From contig QQUJ01000030.1 in assembly GCA_008501635.1 (NCBI GenBank), forward strand, positions 62,001 to 126,000: a DNA stretch of 64,000 nt. Direction: 5' to 3'. The notes beneath the pieces were generated by a model. That model ran no database searches. It saw nothing but the letters and a program-made list of their open reading frames with translations, and had not been told where the DNA came from. Source of the DNA: Pseudomonadota bacterium (GTDB lineage: Bacteria > Pseudomonadota > Gammaproteobacteria > QQUJ01). Positions 313 through 7,938 of the stretch are shown in pieces (within the stretch, counting starts at the first letter, position 1; each line of letters starts with the position of its first letter). The translations under genes and the position numbers were made by a program.

Positions 313-1062
313 ATGGTAATATCCCCCGCTGTAATCAAGCTTACGGCGACCACTTCCTTGGATCTTTCGCTACTTTCCGCCATGCTCATCGGCCTTTTCA
401 GCGCAGTTCACTGCCTGGGTATGTGCGGCGGCATCATGGGCGCGCTCACCTTCAGTCTCCCGGCTGAAACACGGCAAAAATCCGGGCACCTGGCGCTCTA
501 CATCGCGGCCTTCAATGTCGGTCGAGTTGCCAGTTACGTGGCCGCCGGCGCCTTATTGGGCGCCATTGGCGAGACCTTCTATCACGTCGTCAATCTGCCG
601 CTGGCCCACTACACGCTGCAAACCATCGCCGCACTGCTATTGGCCGGTATCGGTCTCTATCTGGCCGGATGGTTTCCCAGATTCGCCCTCATCGAACGCA
701 TCGGTGTCCCAATCTGGCGCCGGCTCGAACCCCTCGGCCGACGCCTGGTGCCGGTGCGATCGCTGCCGCAGGCGCTGCTCTACGGCATGATCTGGGGTTG
801 GCTGCCTTGCGGATTGGTCTACACCACGTTGTTGATGACGCTCGCCGCGCCAAGCGCGCAACAGGGGGCGCTCTTCATGCTGGCTTTCGGGCTGGCAACC
901 ATACCTGCCGTGGTCAGCGCGGGTATCCTAACTGGGTGGGTGACACGCCTGACACGTTTGCCCTATCTTAGACCCGTGGTGGGGAGTCTCTTGATTGCCA
1001 TGGCATTGGCAAGCATCGCGGTGCCGGGACTTATCGGGTCGATTCCCGCCCCTACTCATTGA
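313..1062 (+). CDS. DsbD/TauE-like inner-membrane protein (PF13386 type)
   Basis: A polytopic membrane protein of about 249 residues in the family annotated 'sulfite exporter TauE/SafE' or DsbD_2. The first membrane helix carries the family hallmark SAVHCLGMCGG (Cys34 and Cys38), and a second half-repeat carries WGWLPCGLVYTTLL, as expected for a duplicated 3+3-helix fold that passes electrons or metal through cysteines. Members often sit next to cbb3-oxidase assembly genes, but none is visible here. The next gene starts 18 bp downstream, so the two are probably co-transcribed. The reading frame is open from an upstream ATG at 223, but those residues are arginine- and proline-rich and not membrane-like. 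ATG 313 has AGGA directly before it, so the start is uncertain. The substrate is unknown. Confidence 0.82.
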   Translation: MVISPAVIKLTATTSLDLSLLSAMLIGLFSAVHCLGMCGGIMGALTFSLPAETRQKSGHLALYIAAFNVGRVASYVAAGALLGAIGETFYHVVNLPLAHYTLQTIAALLLAGIGLYLAGWFPRFALIERIGVPIWRRLEPLGRRLVPVRSLPQALLYGMIWGWLPCGLVYTTLLMTLAAPSAQQGALFMLAFGLATIPAVVSAGILTGWVTRLTRLPYLRPVVGSLLIAMALASIAVPGLIGSIPAPTH

Positions 1063-1080
1063 CACGATGGAACTGACACC

Positions 1081-1971
1081 ATGAACGCATTTGAACGGTT
1101 GTTGGTCGGAGAATCTCCCGAACTCAAAGCGCTGATCAGGACGGCGCAGATCGCGGCGCTCACCGATGTGCCGCTGATGATCATCGGCGGCAGCGGCAGC
1201 GGCAAGACGCTGATGGCCCAAGCTGCTCACCAGCACAGTCCGCGCTACCGCGGTCCAATGATCGAGCTCAACTGTGGACTGCTCGAACTCGAGCGGCTGG
1301 AGAACGGTTGGAATAGCGCTCGCGGAGGAACCCTGGTGCTTGAAGATCTGGGTGACCTGCCCAGCGCAAGCCAGGCGCGGCTGCTGATGTTGCTTGAACA
1401 GAACCCCGAGACCCACACCCGCGATACGAAAGGGCAGGTGCAGAATGTTCGCGTGATCACGACGCTGGGCAGCGATCTCTTCGAGCGCGTCGAGAACGGA
1501 CAGTTTCGCCGTGATCTCTATTTCCGTTTGAAGGTCGTTCCTCTGGAACTGCCTGGCCTCAAAGAGCGCACCGGAGACGCGTCGTTTCTGTTCCAACACA
1601 TCACCTTGGAATTTGCGCGCCGCTACCAGGTGAACCGGCCTTACCTGACCCGCGGTGCAGAACAGGCTATCGCCCGTTACAGCTGGCCAGGCAATGTGCG
1701 CGAACTCAAGAATCTGTGCGAGCGCATGGTCATTCTCTTGGCGGGCAAGGCGATCGACGTCACCAATCTACCGCGCGAAATGCAGGAACCCGCCCAGCAG
1801 AACACCCGTTTCCAGTTACCGGACTCGGGGTTGAGTCTTGATGATCTGGAAAGGGACATGATCAAGCAGGCACTCGAAAGAACCGTCGGCAACCGCAGCC
1901 GTGCGGCCCGATTGCTCGGTATCACGCGTGATACGCTGCTGTACCGATTGAAGAAGTACGCGATCCAATAG
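1081..1971 (+). CDS. Sigma-54-activator-like AAA+ regulator lacking the GAFTGA loop
   Basis: This 296-residue protein has the central AAA+ domain and Fis-type DNA-binding tail of NtrC-family regulators but no N-terminal sensor domain. Walker A is GGSGSGKT (36-43), the Walker B region reads LVLEDLGDLP (85-94) instead of the usual LFLDEIGDLP, the arginine region FRRDLYFRL is at 142-150, SWPGNVREL is at 201-209, and a helix-turn-helix (RSRAARLLGITRDTLLYRL) closes the protein. Between ELNC and the Walker B strand only about 20 residues remain where about 40 are normal, so the L1 loop with GAFTGA, which contacts sigma-54, is absent. It therefore probably does not activate sigma-54 RNA polymerase directly and may act like other GAFTGA-less relatives (TyrR, HupR) as a repressor or sigma-70 regulator. 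It follows the TauE-like gene by 18 bp. Confidence 0.88.
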   Translation: MNAFERLLVGESPELKALIRTAQIAALTDVPLMIIGGSGSGKTLMAQAAHQHSPRYRGPMIELNCGLLELERLENGWNSARGGTLVLEDLGDLPSASQARLLMLLEQNPETHTRDTKGQVQNVRVITTLGSDLFERVENGQFRRDLYFRLKVVPLELPGLKERTGDASFLFQHITLEFARRYQVNRPYLTRGAEQAIARYSWPGNVRELKNLCERMVILLAGKAIDVTNLPREMQEPAQQNTRFQLPDSGLSLDDLERDMIKQALERTVGNRSRAARLLGITRDTLLYRLKKYAIQ

Positions 1972-2039: not shown

Positions 2040-2510
2040 TCACCTGTGCCCCGAAGGCGCGTGTCCCTCCGAATTGCCGTCACTTCTGCTCACGGTGAAC
2101 TCCACCGTCTGCCGGGTTCCGTCGCTGAACACCAGATCGATCGCAACCTGATCACCGAGTCTCAACGGCCGCTTGGGCCGCAGCAGCATCAGGTGGTAAC
2201 CCCCGGGTTCGAAGATCAGCTCAACGCCCTTCGGTAACTCGATTCTCTGGCGGTGAATCATCATCGCCATGCCATCTTTGGTGACAGTCTGATGCAGCAT
2301 GACGCTCTGGAAATCGTCGCTCTCCGCACTTACCAGTGTCTTCTGCGAGGAGTGGTTGCGGATCTTCATGTACCCCGCCAGCGCTTTTGCGGTGGGCGGC
2401 GCCTCACGAATCCACGGGCTTTCGATCACCACACCCCTATCGACAGCATGTGCCCAACTCATCGTCACCACCATCGCCATCGGGAATACCAGCTTCTTCA
2501 AAACGCGCAT
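2040..2510 (-). CDS. PCu(A)C-type periplasmic copper chaperone
   Basis: A 156-residue exported protein (signal peptide to about residue 22, ending SWAHA). It carries the complete copper ligand pattern of the PCu(A)C family (DUF461): His73, Met84, His106 and Met108 match H-X10-M-X21-H-X-M. Family members bind Cu(I) in the periplasm and deliver it to the CuA or CuB site of cytochrome oxidases. AGAGAG lies about 8 nt before the ATG. It is on the same strand as, and 186 bp downstream of, the tonB operon, so read-through is possible. A His/Gly-containing tail ends the protein. Confidence 0.92.
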   Translation of the reverse strand: MRVLKKLVFPMAMVVTMSWAHAVDRGVVIESPWIREAPPTAKALAGYMKIRNHSSQKTLVSAESDDFQSVMLHQTVTKDGMAMMIHRQRIELPKGVELIFEPGGYHLMLLRPKRPLRLGDQVAIDLVFSDGTRQTVEFTVSRSDGNSEGHAPSGHR

Positions 2511-2696: not shown

Positions 2697-3416
2697 TCAG
2701 CGCAATGAAAACTCCATGCCGAAGCGGATCGGCATCGGGCTTTCGACCTCGGCGGGCACCGCTGGCATCGGCAGGGCGTTTTTGACGGTCTGTTCGGCGG
2801 CCTGCGCCAGTATCGGATGTGACGCCTGCCCGTTCACCCGCAACGCCTCGATAGAGCCGCCGCGATGCAGGTTGAAGCTGACCTCGACCACGCCACCCAG
2901 GCGTCGGCGCCGGGCTGCATTGGGGTAGTGTTTGTGTTGCTCGATATGGGCGATCAGCAGGCCGAGGTAGGTCTGACGCGCCTGTTCGACCAAGGCGGAA
3001 TCACCCTGAGGCTGAACGGCTGCCGCAACCGGCACGCCGGTCGGCTTCCCGGCCGCAACAGACTTCTGCGGCGGGGGTGGCGGCTCAGCAGGCCGGGGTA
3101 CAGGGCGCGGCTTCGATTTCGCCACCGGCTCGGGTTTGGGCCGGGGTTTTGGCTTCGGTTGAGGTTTTGGGGATTGCGGTTGGGGAGGCGGCGATTTGCG
3201 CACCTCCCTGACGGGTTGCGGCACCGGTTCGGCCGCGGGCGGGGGAGGCACCGGCCGGGGCTGGGTGCGAAAGGTCAGTCTGGTGGCGCCGGCCTGCACC
3301 GCCTCGCGTCCCTGTGTGGCGCTGATCAGTGTCGATTTCTGCAGCAGCAGACCGCCATGAAGCAGCAATGAAGCGGTCAGGGCAACGCCCCAGATACCCG
3401 TGTCGCGCTGGATCAT
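2697..3416 (-). CDS. tonB: TonB energy transducer
   Basis: A 239-residue protein with one N-terminal membrane anchor (about 10-26), a long proline/lysine/arginine-rich periplasmic spacer (about 55-125, many Pro-Lys-Pro and Pro-Arg-Pro steps), and a C-terminal TonB domain with the typical YPNAARRRRLGGVVEVSF strand motif (about 165-182). It transmits proton-motive force from ExbBD to TonB-dependent outer-membrane receptors. Its ATG overlaps the end of exbD by 4 bp (ATGA), so the two are translationally coupled. No TonB-dependent receptor gene is in the window, so the cargo has to be inferred from the operon's other members. Confidence 0.93.
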   Translation of the reverse strand: MIQRDTGIWGVALTASLLLHGGLLLQKSTLISATQGREAVQAGATRLTFRTQPRPVPPPPAAEPVPQPVREVRKSPPPQPQSPKPQPKPKPRPKPEPVAKSKPRPVPRPAEPPPPPQKSVAAGKPTGVPVAAAVQPQGDSALVEQARQTYLGLLIAHIEQHKHYPNAARRRRLGGVVEVSFNLHRGGSIEALRVNGQASHPILAQAAEQTVKNALPMPAVPAEVESPMPIRFGMEFSLR

Positions 3417-3814
3417 GGTTCCTCGGTCACGACATCGACGCCCAGCGCACCCGCCCTGCGGGCCGCGTCCAACACCTGCACGGTGACGTCGAGCGTGGCG
3501 CGCCGATCTCCCCGCAACCGCACCTTGCGTTCCGCGTTGCCGCTGAGCGCGTTGCGAATGACTGTTTCCAACTCCTTCGCTTCGACGAAGTGGTTGCGCA
3601 CCCGCAAGCGGTTCTGCTCATCCACCACCACCTCGAGCACCTCCTCCTCTTCAAGCGCCATCCCGCTCTCGGCCGCGGGCAGATCGATCTGCAACGACTC
3701 CTCGCGCACGAAATGCGAGGTCAGCATGAAAAAGACCAGCATCAGAAACACCACATCGATCAGCGGCGTCAGATTGGGCACCAGGCTCGTTCGCCGCCGC
3801 CCTTCAAACTGCAC
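3413..3814 (-). CDS. exbD: ExbD/TolR biopolymer transport protein
   Basis: 133 residues with the ExbD plan: a short cytosolic tail, then NLTPLIDVVFLMLVFFMLTS, the single membrane helix with the conserved functional aspartate (Asp20), and a periplasmic domain of about 90 residues. With ExbB it forms the proton-driven stator complex that powers TonB. Translation starts at a GTG that lies inside the last codons of exbB (11-bp overlap), indicating coupling. ExbD is preferred over TolR because tonB follows immediately and no tolA, tolB or pal is present. Confidence 0.92.
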   Translation of the reverse strand: MQFEGRRRTSLVPNLTPLIDVVFLMLVFFMLTSHFVREESLQIDLPAAESGMALEEEEVLEVVVDEQNRLRVRNHFVEAKELETVIRNALSGNAERKVRLRGDRRATLDVTVQVLDAARRAGALGVDVVTEEP

Positions 3815-4463
3815 GGATCACGCCCTCGCGGTGATGCACCGCTGCTTCATCCTCGGGTACGACAGCCTGCGGGAACTGCTCGATGATCAGAGAGGCATAG
3901 CCGCGCATCGATTGCGCACGCCGATCCGCAATGCCCTCCAGCAGGTGCAGCGCCAGCAGCACGGGTATCGAAACGGCGAGCCCCACTCCGGTGGTGACCA
4001 TCGCCTCCCAGATCCCCCCCGCCAGCGCCTGGGCATCGACGCGCCCGCCGGCCTGTTCGATGACCATGAAGGCCTTGATCAGCCCGAGTATGGTGCCGAA
4101 CAGACCGAGCAGCGGTGCGGTATTGCCCAGAATGGCCAGCGTGCGGAATCCCCGCTCCATGCGTTGCTGCTGCTCGGAGCCGAGTCGTATCGCCACCAGG
4201 GTCAGGTTCTTCACCCCCGCCTCCGCCGCCTGCACGATACCGCGCACCACGGCAACTTCGGGCCCCGCCAAACGCTCCAGCAACTCGCCCGCCCTGCCCT
4301 CGTTCAACGCCGCCAGCAGATCGCGCTCGAACCGGCGTGGAGGTCTGCGCATCGATGCCAGTTGCAGCAGACGCTCGATGATCAGCGCCAGCGCAATGCA
4401 GGAGTAGGCCGCCAGAATCCAGACGACTATCCCGCCTTTGGCGAACAGCGCTTCCAGGCTCAT
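3804..4463 (-). CDS. exbB: ExbB/TolQ/MotA-family proton channel
   Basis: About 219 residues with three membrane helices (roughly 9-30, 108-135 and 148-175) and the conserved TolQ/ExbB pore segment LGNTAPLLGLFGTILGLI. It is the pentameric partner of ExbD. The frame is open 27 codons further upstream, but ATG 4463 is preferred because it overlaps the stop of the preceding membrane-protein gene as ATGA and starts directly at the first helix (MSLEALFAKGGIVVWILA). Confidence 0.92.
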   Translation of the reverse strand: MSLEALFAKGGIVVWILAAYSCIALALIIERLLQLASMRRPPRRFERDLLAALNEGRAGELLERLAGPEVAVVRGIVQAAEAGVKNLTLVAIRLGSEQQQRMERGFRTLAILGNTAPLLGLFGTILGLIKAFMVIEQAGGRVDAQALAGGIWEAMVTTGVGLAVSIPVLLALHLLEGIADRRAQSMRGYASLIIEQFPQAVVPEDEAAVHHREGVIRAV

Positions 4464-5134
4464 GGCTGCACCCAGCCGATAGCCGTCACTATGCCCAGCA
4501 GGATGAGCAGCGCACCCGCTCCCCCTTCGAGGGCCGTCTTCCAATGCTGCAGATGGCTGCGAATCTCCGCGCCCAGATAAGCGATGAGGGTCCCGAACAG
4601 CACCAGGGGAATCAGTACCGCACCGACGCCGAAGGCAAAACCCAGCGCCGCACCGGAGGCGGCCTCCGCCGTCGCCGCTGCGGCGACCAGCACGGTGCCA
4701 AGCGGCATGCAGGGATTCAACGCCATCCCCACCCCCATGCCGAAGAGTCCCAGGGGCAGACCGCGCTGTCCGGCACGCGGCTTGCCCCGCGATACGGACG
4801 GTTTGGCGCAGTCGGTTCTAGCGCGCCGGCTGCGCCACACCACGAGCACCCCGACGATCATCGTTGCACCGCCCAACGCGGCACGCCCCGGTTCGCCGAT
4901 AAGCGCCTCGCTGAGCACTTTTCCGGCGGCGCCGGCCACCGCCGCCAACAGCGTATAGCCCACCAAGCGGCCGAGAAAAAACGGTGTCACCGTGCGCCAA
5001 CTGCGGCGCATCCCGCCTTCATTCATCAGCAGCACCGGTCCGAGGAACGGCAGGCACGTGACGTTGCAGGGGCCTGCACCGAAGGCCAGTCCCATCACCA
5101 GAACGGCCGGCAGGCTGAGTGCAAGCGGCTCCAT
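4460..5134 (-). CDS. DsbD/TauE-like membrane protein with cysteine pair, in tonB operon
   Basis: A 224-residue polytopic membrane protein. The first helix contains GAGPCNVTCLPFLGPV (Cys23, Cys27) and the fourth contains MALNPCMPLG (Cys142), the arrangement seen in the CcdA/DsbD transmembrane electron-transfer fold, where helix-1 and helix-4 cysteines work as a redox pair. A soluble basic loop separates the two halves (about 101-125). It sits between a membrane polyferredoxin gene and exbB with a 4-bp ATGA overlap to exbB. A role in moving electrons, or a reduced metal, across the membrane is inferred; a metal-export function is the alternative suggested by its superfamily. Confidence 0.8.
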   Translation of the reverse strand: MEPLALSLPAVLVMGLAFGAGPCNVTCLPFLGPVLLMNEGGMRRSWRTVTPFFLGRLVGYTLLAAVAGAAGKVLSEALIGEPGRAALGGATMIVGVLVVWRSRRARTDCAKPSVSRGKPRAGQRGLPLGLFGMGVGMALNPCMPLGTVLVAAAATAEAASGAALGFAFGVGAVLIPLVLFGTLIAYLGAEIRSHLQHWKTALEGGAGALLILLGIVTAIGWVQP

Positions 5135-5138
5135 CGGC

Positions 5139-6197
5139 TCAACCCTCCGCGGAAACGGCGCGCCGCCGTTTGCCGTTGCGCAGCAGGTTCAGAAGATTGA
5201 ACCGTTCCCAACGATTCTGCGCCTGCTTGCGCCGCTTGAAATAACCGGGATCGGCGCGAAAGATCGGGATCACGGCGTACTTGAGGCTAAGCACGTCCTT
5301 GTCGGGACAGAATTCGACGCAGCGGCCGCAGAGCGTGCAGTCGGCGAACAGCACATCCTTGCACTCCATCTCGGTATGCACCTCACGGATATCCATCGGG
5401 CAGGCCACGGCGCAGAGACCACATTTGTTGCAGCGTGGCTTGGCGTTCTTGACCAACCGCACCAGTCCGATTTTGCGAAACACCGCGTGCAGCGCGAGCA
5501 TCGGACAGATACGGCAGAAGGGCTGGCGCACCTTGAGTGCCAGCGCCACCATGAGTCCGAACAGGAAGGTGCCGATGACGGACAGCACCACGTAGCCCAC
5601 GCTGGTGTTATCGACCACCAGCTGCGACGTGTCGCCGCTCGCCAGGGTGGTGAGAATACGGCTCGGGCAGATGCTGCAATAGGGACTGCCCAACTCGCGA
5701 CCTACCACGCCAAACCCCGCCAGCAAGGGAAAGACGAACACCAGCAGCACGAGTACCAGCCATTTCACCGGCCGCACCCGCTGCACGGTGGACTCGGGCA
5801 GACTCGCCTGCGTCTCGAGGCCCAGCTTCTGACCCACCAGGGTCACCATCTCCTGGAAGAACCCCAGCGGGCAGATCCACCCGCAGAACGCCTTGTTGAG
5901 CACAACGAAAAACAGCAGAAAGGTACCGAGCGTGAGCAGTGTCGGCATGAACGCTGCCACCACCGATCCGCCGGCAGCGAGAACCGCACCCACCCGGTGA
6001 TCCATCTGATGCTGAAGCGGAATCAGCACGCAGTAGTCGGCGGTCTCCAGATCATAGGCACACGCCAGCGCTGGAAATGCCGCGCTGATCTTGTCCGCCA
6101 GATAAAACCCGACCACCGCCGAGCCATAGACCAGGAACAGGAACGCTGCCAGCTGCACCAACTTGCGGATCACCGAGAGGTTAAACAGCGGATTCAT
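5139..6197 (-). CDS. Membrane polyferredoxin (NapH/NosR/CcoG-like, Fer4_5)
   Basis: A 352-residue inner-membrane iron-sulfur protein. There are about five hydrophobic helices. CGWICP (105-110), CSICP (174-178) and CRICP (228-232) are the cysteine motifs of the NapH/NosR/CcoG membrane family. Two ferredoxin-type [4Fe-4S] motifs follow on the cytosolic side, CNKCGLCAVACP (256-267) and CTLCGRCVEFCP (287-298). Relatives carry electrons between the quinone pool or cytosol and periplasmic reductases or maturation factors. Finding one inside a tonB-exbB-exbD operon is unusual and suggests that the imported substrate must be reduced. It overlaps the preceding gene by 4 bp (ATGA) and lies 4 bp from the next. 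Confidence 0.88.
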   Translation of the reverse strand: MNPLFNLSVIRKLVQLAAFLFLVYGSAVVGFYLADKISAAFPALACAYDLETADYCVLIPLQHQMDHRVGAVLAAGGSVVAAFMPTLLTLGTFLLFFVVLNKAFCGWICPLGFFQEMVTLVGQKLGLETQASLPESTVQRVRPVKWLVLVLLVFVFPLLAGFGVVGRELGSPYCSICPSRILTTLASGDTSQLVVDNTSVGYVVLSVIGTFLFGLMVALALKVRQPFCRICPMLALHAVFRKIGLVRLVKNAKPRCNKCGLCAVACPMDIREVHTEMECKDVLFADCTLCGRCVEFCPDKDVLSLKYAVIPIFRADPGYFKRRKQAQNRWERFNLLNLLRNGKRRRAVSAEG

Positions 6198-7087
6198 GAC
6201 GTTACCCCCTTCGTTGGTGTTGCCTCCCGCCGGCGCGTCAGCCCCAGGATGCCCAGGCCGACCGCGAATCCGGAGAGCGCAGCGGCCAGCCCCGCACTGT
6301 TCGATTGCCAGTGCTGGGGATTGACGTAGTACGGCGCGCTCAGGCTGGTTCGGTATTCTTTGCCGTTCTCGGTATGCCGGGCGCGGAGCACGAAATCGGC
6401 CGGCGGGTTGTTGCGGCGGCCGATTTCGATATGGGTGAAATCCTCGGGTAACCGCAGCTCGATGCGCCCCTCGCCATCCGTCGTCAGATCCGCTTGTGTG
6501 CCATTGGACGTTTCCAGGCGCACCGGTGTGTTGGCCAACGGCTGCCCGCGATAATGGAGCTGGTAATTCGCGATGCGATCCGACAGATAGCGCTGATGTT
6601 CGCGCACCAGGGGTGCGGGCACGATTTCCAGCGGCAGCTTGTCGATAGCCACCAGTTCTGCCGGCGAACGCCCCGCAGGCTTGCCGTTGAGATAGAGGTA
6701 ACGTATCGCCGACTCGTGCAGATTCCCCTGAGTTCGTTCCGCCACGACCGCGTGATAGTTGTCGACCCCGGTGGGCCGCACTACCAGCGCATCGTTGTCA
6801 GCCTTCAGTTCGACACGTTGCAGATCGGAACGCCACATCGAAAGCTGCGCGCCTGCCGACCCGTGCAAGTTCAAGGTTTCCGGCCGGCGATGGCGGCCAT
6901 GGCTGCTCTGATTGCCGCCCTTCCGTTTGGCGGTAACCGATGAGTCCGGCGGCGGAGCTTCTGGCGCCGGACCGTGCTGATGTAGATTCAACGTTGCCGG
7001 CGCTCTCCAGACCAGATCGGCAGCGGCTGTTGCAGGATTCGTGAATAGCACCATCACCAAAAAAACGCTTCGTGCATGATCTCTCAT
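6194..7087 (-). CDS. Exported DUF4198-like protein with C-terminal membrane anchor
   Basis: The first gene of the tonB operon, 297 residues. A signal peptide ends near TAAA (residue about 23). A low-complexity His/Pro linker follows, with a repeated TLNLH segment and a His/Arg-rich stretch (HGRHRRPE). A beta-rich region comes next, including an Ig-like tail segment (NYQLHYRGQPLANTPVRLET, then the DGEGRIELRLPED strand typical of DUF4198/carboxypeptidase-regulatory-like domains). One C-terminal helix (about 262-282) ends in RRR. DUF4198 relatives are periplasmic and often sit with nickel, cobalt or iron uptake genes, and the histidine-rich linker could bind metal (inference). ATG 7087 is chosen because the signal peptide begins there. 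Confidence 0.72.
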   Translation of the reverse strand: MRDHARSVFLVMVLFTNPATAAADLVWRAPATLNLHQHGPAPEAPPPDSSVTAKRKGGNQSSHGRHRRPETLNLHGSAGAQLSMWRSDLQRVELKADNDALVVRPTGVDNYHAVVAERTQGNLHESAIRYLYLNGKPAGRSPAELVAIDKLPLEIVPAPLVREHQRYLSDRIANYQLHYRGQPLANTPVRLETSNGTQADLTTDGEGRIELRLPEDFTHIEIGRRNNPPADFVLRARHTENGKEYRTSLSAPYYVNPQHWQSNSAGLAAALSGFAVGLGILGLTRRREATPTKGVTS

Positions 7088-7600
7088 GCTTACTCCCCAG
7101 TTTGCAATGCAACGTATTTCTATCAGCACTCACTTAGCGCGTAAGAAACGGACCGGCTGCTCAGGTGCATCTCTCATTGACGACGTTGGAAAGATCTTCG
7201 GCTCCATAACTACCATCCTCGTTGCCGTCGCCATGGCAGCACTGGGTGTCGTGGTAGAACTCGTCGAAGGGGTTATCGATGCGGTCTTAAAGGGAATCGA
7301 CTCCCCACGGGGGGTGCCGGGTTCCATGGTGAATCTCAATAGTGCGGCAAACGGTGCCTTAGATAAGACAGACGGTGAGTCCACCTGAGAAGGCGTACGG
7401 GTAGAGATACCTGATCGCATTTTCACTCCCCGTCAGTCGCTCTCACAACAGCCTGTGGTCTTGATCAGCGGGGAATACTAGCGTCTTGTATCTTTTTGAA
7501 TAATCGGAGATTTAACTCACAACAGGTGATTTGGCGCAGTTTTGACGACACCACATGATATGCGTCAAAGATCGCTTGGTGAAAACCGAGAAACCGGTGG
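7088..7600. other. Long intergenic region upstream of the tonB operon
   Basis: About 500 bp with no gene I can support. It must hold the promoter of the tonB operon (leftward). A plus-strand frame spans about 7086-7388 and would encode a small protein with one hydrophobic segment (ITTILVAVAMAALGVVVELV). A minus-strand frame of similar length overlaps it but is Ser/Thr/Pro-rich and looks like a shadow. Neither is recognisable. I saw no Fur box, cobalamin riboswitch or other named element. Confidence 0.5.
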
Positions 7601-7647: not shown

Positions 7648-7724
7648 TGGGGTGAACGATGGGAATCGAACCCACGACCGCCGGAATCACAATCCGGAGC
7701 TCTACCTATTGAGCTACGTTCACC
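7648..7724 (-). tRNA. tRNA-His (GTG anticodon)
   Basis: A complete 77-nt tRNA with encoded CCA. It starts GGTGAACGTAGCTC, with the extra 5' G (position -1) typical of tRNA-His. The anticodon loop ATTGTGATT gives GTG and the T arm is GGTTCGATTCC. It is the last gene of a three-tRNA transcript and is followed directly by a strong terminator. Confidence 0.96.
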
Positions 7725-7750
7725 ACTGTAACCAGTTGCACGGGCAGAAG

Positions 7751-7827
7751 TGGTACGCCCGGCAGGACTCGAACCTGCAACCCTCGGCTTAGAAGGCCGA
7801 TGCTCTGTCCGGTTGAGCTACGGGCGC
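7751..7827 (-). tRNA. tRNA-Arg (TCT anticodon)
   Basis: A complete 77-nt tRNA with encoded CCA, acceptor stem GCGCCCG/CGGGCGT, anticodon loop CTTCTAA (TCT) and T arm GGTTCGAGTCC. It is close to known bacterial tRNA-Arg(UCU) and is the middle gene of the Pro-Arg-His cluster. Confidence 0.95.
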
Positions 7828-7861
7828 ATCGGTTGAATCGCACTGCCGCGCATCGGGATAT

Positions 7862-7938
7862 TGGTCGGGGTAGAGGGATTTGAACCCCCGACATCCAGCT
7901 CCCAAAGCTGGCGCGCTACCAGGCTGCGCTATACCCCG
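7862..7938 (-). tRNA. tRNA-Pro (TGG anticodon)
   Basis: A complete 77-nt tRNA with encoded CCA. The acceptor stem is CGGGGTA/TACCCCG, the D arm is GCGCAGCCTGGTAGCGC as in other bacterial tRNA-Pro, and the anticodon loop TTTGGGA gives TGG. It is the first gene of the cluster, so the promoter should lie in the gap before folD, divergent from it. Confidence 0.95.

Follow-up and report, generated by a model that had tools for sequence, protein, structure and literature searches.

The window analysed here, a stretch of 64,000 nucleotides (nt) from contig QQUJ01000030.1 of assembly GCA_008501635.1 (positions 62,001-126,000, forward strand), carries on its minus strand a six-gene operon that reads from window position 7087 to 2697 and combines tonB, exbB and exbD with genes for a NapH-like membrane polyferredoxin, a CcdA-like membrane protein and an exported DUF4198-like protein. 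All six open reading frames are open and intact, and their families agree with the original prediction, made from the DNA letters, of a six-gene operon at 2697-7087. The description of these genes as fused does not hold, as they are separate and merely adjacent. The features of the locus, with protein lengths in amino acids (aa), are as follows.

6194..7087, minus strand: exported protein of predicted DUF4198 fold, 297 aa; predicted signal peptide, His-rich N-terminal segment, beta domain, C-terminal transmembrane helix
5139..6197, minus strand: NapH-like membrane polyferredoxin, 352 aa; predicted four transmembrane helices, cytosolic 2x[4Fe-4S] domain and periplasmic C46/C56/QHQ/C174/C177
4460..5134, minus strand: CcdA/DsbD_2-like membrane protein, 224 aa; conserved GPCNxxCLP, C109 and NPC142
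3804..4463, minus strand: ExbB, 219 aa; MotA_ExbB domain
3413..3814, minus strand: ExbD, 133 aa, GTG start; ExbD domain
2697..3416, minus strand: TonB, 239 aa, Pro/Lys-rich linker; TonB_C domain
2040..2510, minus strand: PCu(A)C copper chaperone, 156 aa; PF04314, copper motif HX10MX21HXM intact
7140..7295, minus strand: C-terminal receptor remnant, 52 codons with two in-frame stops; type A TonB-dependent receptor, which precedes the operon in relatives

The TonB_C (53 bits, cutoff 24.6), ExbD (92.1 bits, cutoff 25.4) and MotA_ExbB (86.2 bits, cutoff 22.9) domains all score above their Pfam cutoffs and lie in one gene block, which on these matches qualifies as a TonB-ExbB-ExbD energy transduction system. 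The whole genome contains five TonB_C and five ExbD matches, and the operon in the window is thus one of several TonB sets. The 4-bp ATGA overlaps reported between the genes are present at three junctions (DUF4198-like/polyferredoxin, CcdA-like/ExbB and ExbD/TonB), but ExbB and ExbD overlap by 11 bp, with a GTG start, and a 4-bp gap separates the polyferredoxin gene from the CcdA-like gene. The PCu(A)C gene (PF04314, 109 bits) follows tonB after 186 bp, in the same orientation, and upstream of the operon are tRNA genes for His, Arg and Pro at 7648-7938.

Gene order and the upstream receptor

To examine related loci, a species-level genome collection was scanned with a polyferredoxin alignment, and the best 80 of 378 relatives, with names, form the set of named loci; individual loci are cited below by L numbers. 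Counts use those loci with room for the gene in question, and all are conditional on the polyferredoxin having been found. The named loci span Gammaproteobacteria, Zetaproteobacteria and Campylobacterota, with carriers that include Sedimenticola, Candidatus Thiodiazotropha, Methylophaga, a Methylomonas metagenome-assembled genome (MAG), Neptuniibacter, Amphritea, Mariprofundus and Sulfurimonas. The CcdA gene adjoins the polyferredoxin gene in 74 of 76 loci and the DUF4198-like gene does so in 71 of 78, while a TonB-dependent receptor is encoded directly upstream on the same strand in 55 of 65 (anywhere in the locus in 62 of 65). Given the polyferredoxin, this gene order is far above chance expectation, and the association is not accidental, as the original prediction had proposed. 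ExbD and TonB, however, follow downstream in 38 of 65 loci. These adjacency counts identify receptor–DUF4198-like–polyferredoxin–CcdA as the constant unit and TonB/ExbBD as an optional addition, a correction to the original prediction. A search across a class sample of 369 genomes from 272 genera found the CcdA-like protein in 15 genomes (13 genera), again in neighbourhoods that repeat the gene order. These 15 genomes count as operon carriers, and the Fisher tests of co-occurrence given below compare them with the 354 others and ignore phylogeny.

No intact receptor gene is present upstream of the operon in the window. A tblastn search with the receptors of relatives located the remnant at 7140-7295 (minus strand), where the receptor C-terminus sits in those relatives, with 57% identity over 44 aa (49.3 bits, E 5.6e-9; the best of 50 codon shuffles reached 24.3 bits). 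The question of which TonB-dependent receptor co-occurs with the operon thus has an answer in the gene directly upstream in relatives, and in the window this dedicated gene has decayed to a 52-codon stub. The receptors fall into two classes, A (alignment A3) and B (alignment A4), and in class B an HxHPV motif in the barrel is invariant. On the tree, the nearest polyferredoxins are those of L052, L078 and L083, all paired with a type A receptor. Receptor class requires 4 changes on the polyferredoxin tree, at least 2 of which are forced by well-supported branches, and this swapping of receptors, 2-4 times, is what one would expect of a core whose target is the cargo and not a particular chelate. 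OprC, tried as a complementary alternative receptor, was rejected, as it too co-occurs with the operon (5/15 carriers versus 38/354 others).

With the dedicated receptor gone, the module in the window must now rely on a different receptor or on a porin, unless it is being lost. That this copy is a decaying relic, its receptor a stub and the rest drifting, strikes us as doubtful; such a reading concerns the window's operon only and is compatible with any function. The in-frame stops of the remnant are consistent with decay, as are the genome's three other Plug-domain receptors, which are BtuB-like or of other kinds and none of the operon's kind. Yet all six remaining genes are open with their overlapping junctions intact, and the conserved cysteines and nearly all the conserved histidines checked are still in place.

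Several loci depart from the common arrangement. In most of L131-L139, L145, L150 and L154, which come mainly from Zetaproteobacteria, the receptor and DUF4198-like genes are separated by a gene for an LTXXQ-like periplasmic protein of 170-180 aa (22.8 bits in Mariprofundus-type loci, slightly below the cutoff of 24.3); the LTXXQ family includes metal-responsive proteins. Two consecutive ExbB-ExbD-TonB sets follow the operon at L056:112-3498 and L061:249-3710, and L056 has both receptor classes. At L114:8182-13698 (minus strand), a convergent neighbouring operon encodes a second TonB-dependent receptor, a BNR-repeat protein with Cys/His clusters, a thioredoxin-like protein and ExbB-ExbD-TonB.

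Conserved residues of the redox and exported proteins

The polyferredoxin contains Fer4_5 and 4Fe-4S ferredoxin domains, with four transmembrane helices and a cytosolic ferredoxin domain predicted. Like the NapH and C-terminal NosR membrane ferredoxins, it combines Fer4_5 and CX3CP-type cytosolic motifs with two C-terminal 4Fe-4S clusters, and all of its cytosolic cluster cysteines are common to the four usable NapH/NosR-type homologues (L009, L010, L012 and L025). The NapH/MauN model TIGR02163, however, gives 65.5 bits against a cutoff of 213, too few for membership in NapH itself, and CcoG is not among the best 25 of 49 matches, nor were cco genes recognised in the operon. The subfamily is distinguished by a second set of residues on predicted periplasmic loops: C46, C56, Q62-H63-Q64, C174 and C177 are invariant in 32 family members, the distant double-cubane type described below included, and H67 is nearly invariant. 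Unlike the cytosolic cysteines, these invariant residues are found only in this subfamily and are absent from the four NapH/NosR-type homologues. An AlphaFold2 (AF2) model places C46 and C56 on two short strands; a fold search with this model returned no useful match.

The CcdA-like protein matches DsbD_2 (PF13386) with 83.9 bits (cutoff 24.9), and its C23, C27, C109 and C142 are conserved. Membership in this family would fit a pathway that feeds electrons to thiol-disulfide exchange in the periplasm and so keeps assembly factors for copper sites reduced, while the receptor imports metal separately, and a TlpA/thioredoxin-like gene does lie just downstream in some loci, for example L081 and L140. 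Such loci are few, however, the His-containing periplasmic loop of the polyferredoxin resembles a metal site, and the receptor and the DUF4198-like protein with its predicted metal-binding fold are nearly always adjacent. We therefore regard a purely thiol-directed role as decidedly unlikely. A second DsbD_2-family protein (169 bits), with HCxxxCGG and PCG motifs, is encoded near a PCu(A)C gene at window positions 313-1062 (plus strand), and a sigma-54 activator of 296 aa at 1081-1971 (plus strand) consists only of AAA+ and Fis-type helix-turn-helix domains, without an N-terminal sensor or receiver domain.

The head gene had been described as encoding a His-rich exported DUF4198-like protein, and its product indeed has a His-rich segment and a predicted signal peptide. 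The DUF4198 (PF10670) match of 21.4 bits falls below the gathering cutoff of 34. The AF2 model (pLDDT 86.5) finds its best fold matches in the PDB with Zcp, a Zn/Co/Cu-bound protein (E 5e-9), and with a Ni-bound DUF4198 protein (E 1e-6), both with a probability of 1.00 and a modest TM-score of 0.35-0.44 by query length, so the exported protein is predicted to adopt the DUF4198/Zcp fold. Residues H63 and H164 are invariant in 30 homologues, and the His-rich N-terminal segment is conserved as well.

A rarer form of the operon includes a further reductase. A double-cubane anaerobic reductase and its activase are encoded between the polyferredoxin and the CcdA-like protein at L053:6982-9072 and L058:7599-9667; the L053 copy scores 358.9 bits with NF040772 (cutoff 350) and the adjacent activase 239 bits with TIGR00241 (cutoff 125). 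This reductase occurs in 4 of the 369 genomes of the class sample, all four among the 15 operon carriers, and G083 and G207 carry it in a second DUF4198-like–polyferredoxin–reductase–activase cluster. The arrangement suggests that some operon members need a stronger reductant. The same reductase and activase pair also lies inside or beside the operon in L172 and L173. To our knowledge, no natural role has been established for the double-cubane reductase family.

Copper, iron and nickel as candidate substrates

Copper is the most likely metal and the best supported. PCu(A)C, with its copper motif intact, adjoins the TonB genes in the window, L058 and L083, and a Sec-type NosZ gene adjoins the operon in L052, the locus of the nearest relative; the genome of the window encodes a Sec-type NosZ elsewhere. 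NosZ occurs in 11 of the 15 carriers versus 46 of the 354 others (p 4e-7, kinship ignored). The lack of Fur-box enrichment upstream of the operons also counts in favour of copper. The hint of copper first drawn from the PCu(A)C gene is supported, although we still only infer the metal, and NiFe hydrogenase co-occurs with the operon as well.

Several observations weigh against a firm claim of copper import. NiFe hydrogenase is found in 10 of the 15 carriers versus 71 of the 354 others (p 2e-4, kinship ignored), so that the NosZ link may reflect a common lifestyle or phylogeny, and of 50 named carriers tested, 23 lack NosZ (among them Mariprofundus, Neptuniibacter and the Methylomonas MAG), so that it is not the obligate client. 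This control and the NosZ-free carriers weaken NosZ as proof of copper. Among the receptors, type A gives no match to the OprC/NosA model TIGR01778 (cutoff 472 bits), and for type B this model does not appear in the 25 best matches; of the solved structures, the pyrroloquinoline quinone (PQQ) receptor PqqU/YncD comes closest to both classes, at about 155-168 bits. The solved DUF4198 protein prefers Ni over Cu (PMC12537917), the topology of the polyferredoxin is derived from hydropathy and charge only, and no copper-type operator was found in the 84 upstream regions scanned.

The same 84 regions, compared with background, show no enrichment of Fur, Zur, NikR, CueR, CsoR, CopR or NsrR boxes. FNR-like sites (at least 9/10 positions) occur in 12 of 84 operon upstream regions versus 27 of 544 others, a suggestive difference uncorrected for kinship. 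Palindromes of the TGTGACNNNNNGTCACA type, often in tandem, lie 70-120 bp upstream of the DUF4198-like gene in L141-L155 (Oceanospirillales) and are nearly unique to the operon; in Oceanospirillales genomes, the TGTGACN5GTCACA operator marks almost solely the operon itself, and two other sites are uninformative.

An iron chelate could be the substrate instead, with the polyferredoxin/CcdA pair acting as a periplasmic Fe(III) reductase in the manner of PepSY/FoxB-type and FtrD-type systems. The PepSY-DUF2271-DUF4198-TonB clusters are tied to iron (PMC8238504), the operon occurs in Mariprofundus and other iron-cycling bacteria, and the best family scores of the receptors are with siderophore/haem subfamilies, though under curated cutoffs. 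The missing Fur-box enrichment and the copper-related neighbours PCu(A)C and NosZ argue otherwise, and we consider an iron substrate unlikely. Nickel or cobalt uptake, with the DUF4198 protein as the Ni/Co carrier and the redox genes serving thiol chemistry rather than metal reduction, appears quite unlikely to us. DUF4198 proteins are secreted metal binders near TonB receptors, and the solved member binds Ni with a Kd of 18 nM (PMC12537917), which together with the hydrogenase co-occurrence would fit such a role. Ni and Zn, however, require no reduction, yet the polyferredoxin and the CcdA-like protein are the most constant neighbours; NikR-type sites are not enriched, and a riboswitch search of seven loci found only tRNAs and no cobalamin or NiCo riboswitch.

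A proposed mechanism and its relation to known systems

Taken together, we see about an even chance that the operon serves TonB-coupled uptake of a redox-active metal in short supply, copper being the likeliest, and encodes a dedicated reductase in the inner membrane. Uptake linked to reduction of the imported compound, as originally predicted, fits an association that is real, while its mechanism is a proposal of ours. An outer-membrane TonB-dependent receptor, powered by the operon's TonB-ExbB-ExbD, would take a metal ion or chelate into the periplasm, where the membrane-anchored DUF4198-fold protein may bind the metal through its histidines. The cytosolic clusters of the polyferredoxin would take electrons from the cytosol or the quinol pool and pass them to the putative Cys/His site on the periplasmic loops, at which the metal would be reduced (Cu(II) to Cu(I)); the CcdA-like protein may give thiol electrons or handle the reduced ion. 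Chaperones, PCu(A)C among them, would then receive the reduced metal for use in copper enzymes (N2O reductase, haem-copper oxidases).

The original prediction overstated the case in denying redox partners to ordinary tonB operons. FoxB/PepSY_TM reductases are encoded alongside the copper receptors OprC and CrtA (PMC8610252, PMC12914433, PMC13038864), and clusters that join PepSY-DUF2271-DUF4198 to TonB receptors have been described (PMC8238504). The CrtA-CrpH operon of Bordetella pertussis (OptJ/PA0434 in Pseudomonas aeruginosa; PMC12914433, PMC13038864) likewise places a TonB-dependent receptor beside a putative inner-membrane metal reductase, and sometimes includes a dedicated ExbBD/TonB set together with PCu(A)C. 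Its reductase is a haem PepSY_TM protein, however, in lieu of the NapH-like polyferredoxin, CcdA-like protein and predicted DUF4198-fold protein found here, and the receptors here match CrtA (PDB 9rvq) at the superfamily level only (74.7 bits for class B versus 168 for PqqU/YncD; not listed for type A). OprC/NosA with the FoxB-like PA3789 (PMC8610252) also unites an outer-membrane copper receptor and a putative reductase in one operon, and NosA is linked to N2O reductase (PMC7558416); the receptors here are without a TIGR01778 match among the reported hits, and the reductase type differs. The flavinylated PepSY-DUF2271-DUF4198 systems (PMC8238504) share a DUF4198 protein, a trans-membrane electron carrier and a TonB receptor with these loci, in which the NapH-like polyferredoxin and CcdA-like protein replace PepSY and the flavinylated DUF2271. 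CcoG is likewise a membrane iron-sulfur protein and reduces Cu(II) for cuproenzyme assembly (PMC7558416), but its gene lies with those of cbb3 oxidase and its substrate is copper in the cytoplasm (PMC13038864), whereas the polyferredoxin here is closer to NapH and has its distinctive residues on predicted periplasmic loops.

Our search of the literature at hand turned up no account of the polyferredoxin–CcdA–DUF4198–receptor unit. For copper, a receptor combined with an inner-membrane reductase is already known with PepSY/FoxB-type reductases, whereas the polyferredoxin version and the double-cubane form seem to be undescribed. More tentatively, and with somewhat less than even confidence, we propose that these loci represent an undescribed class of TonB-coupled metal-acquisition operon, in which an Fe-S polyferredoxin with a periplasmic Cys/His metal site acts as a periplasm-facing cupric reductase together with a CcdA-like thiol carrier, and which has a rarer version with an ATP-driven double-cubane reductase between the two.

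How copper enters bacteria and where it is reduced are poorly known: characterised examples are limited to a few copper receptors and a single specific cupric reductase, CcoG. The operon described here, whose carriers range from sulfur-oxidising symbionts and iron oxidisers to marine heterotrophs and a methanotroph MAG, is a testable candidate for outer-membrane import coupled to inner-membrane reduction, and many of its hosts have N2O reductase. Its double-cubane variant offers a lead on the role of that reductase family which, if true, would give the family a physiological role in metal uptake.

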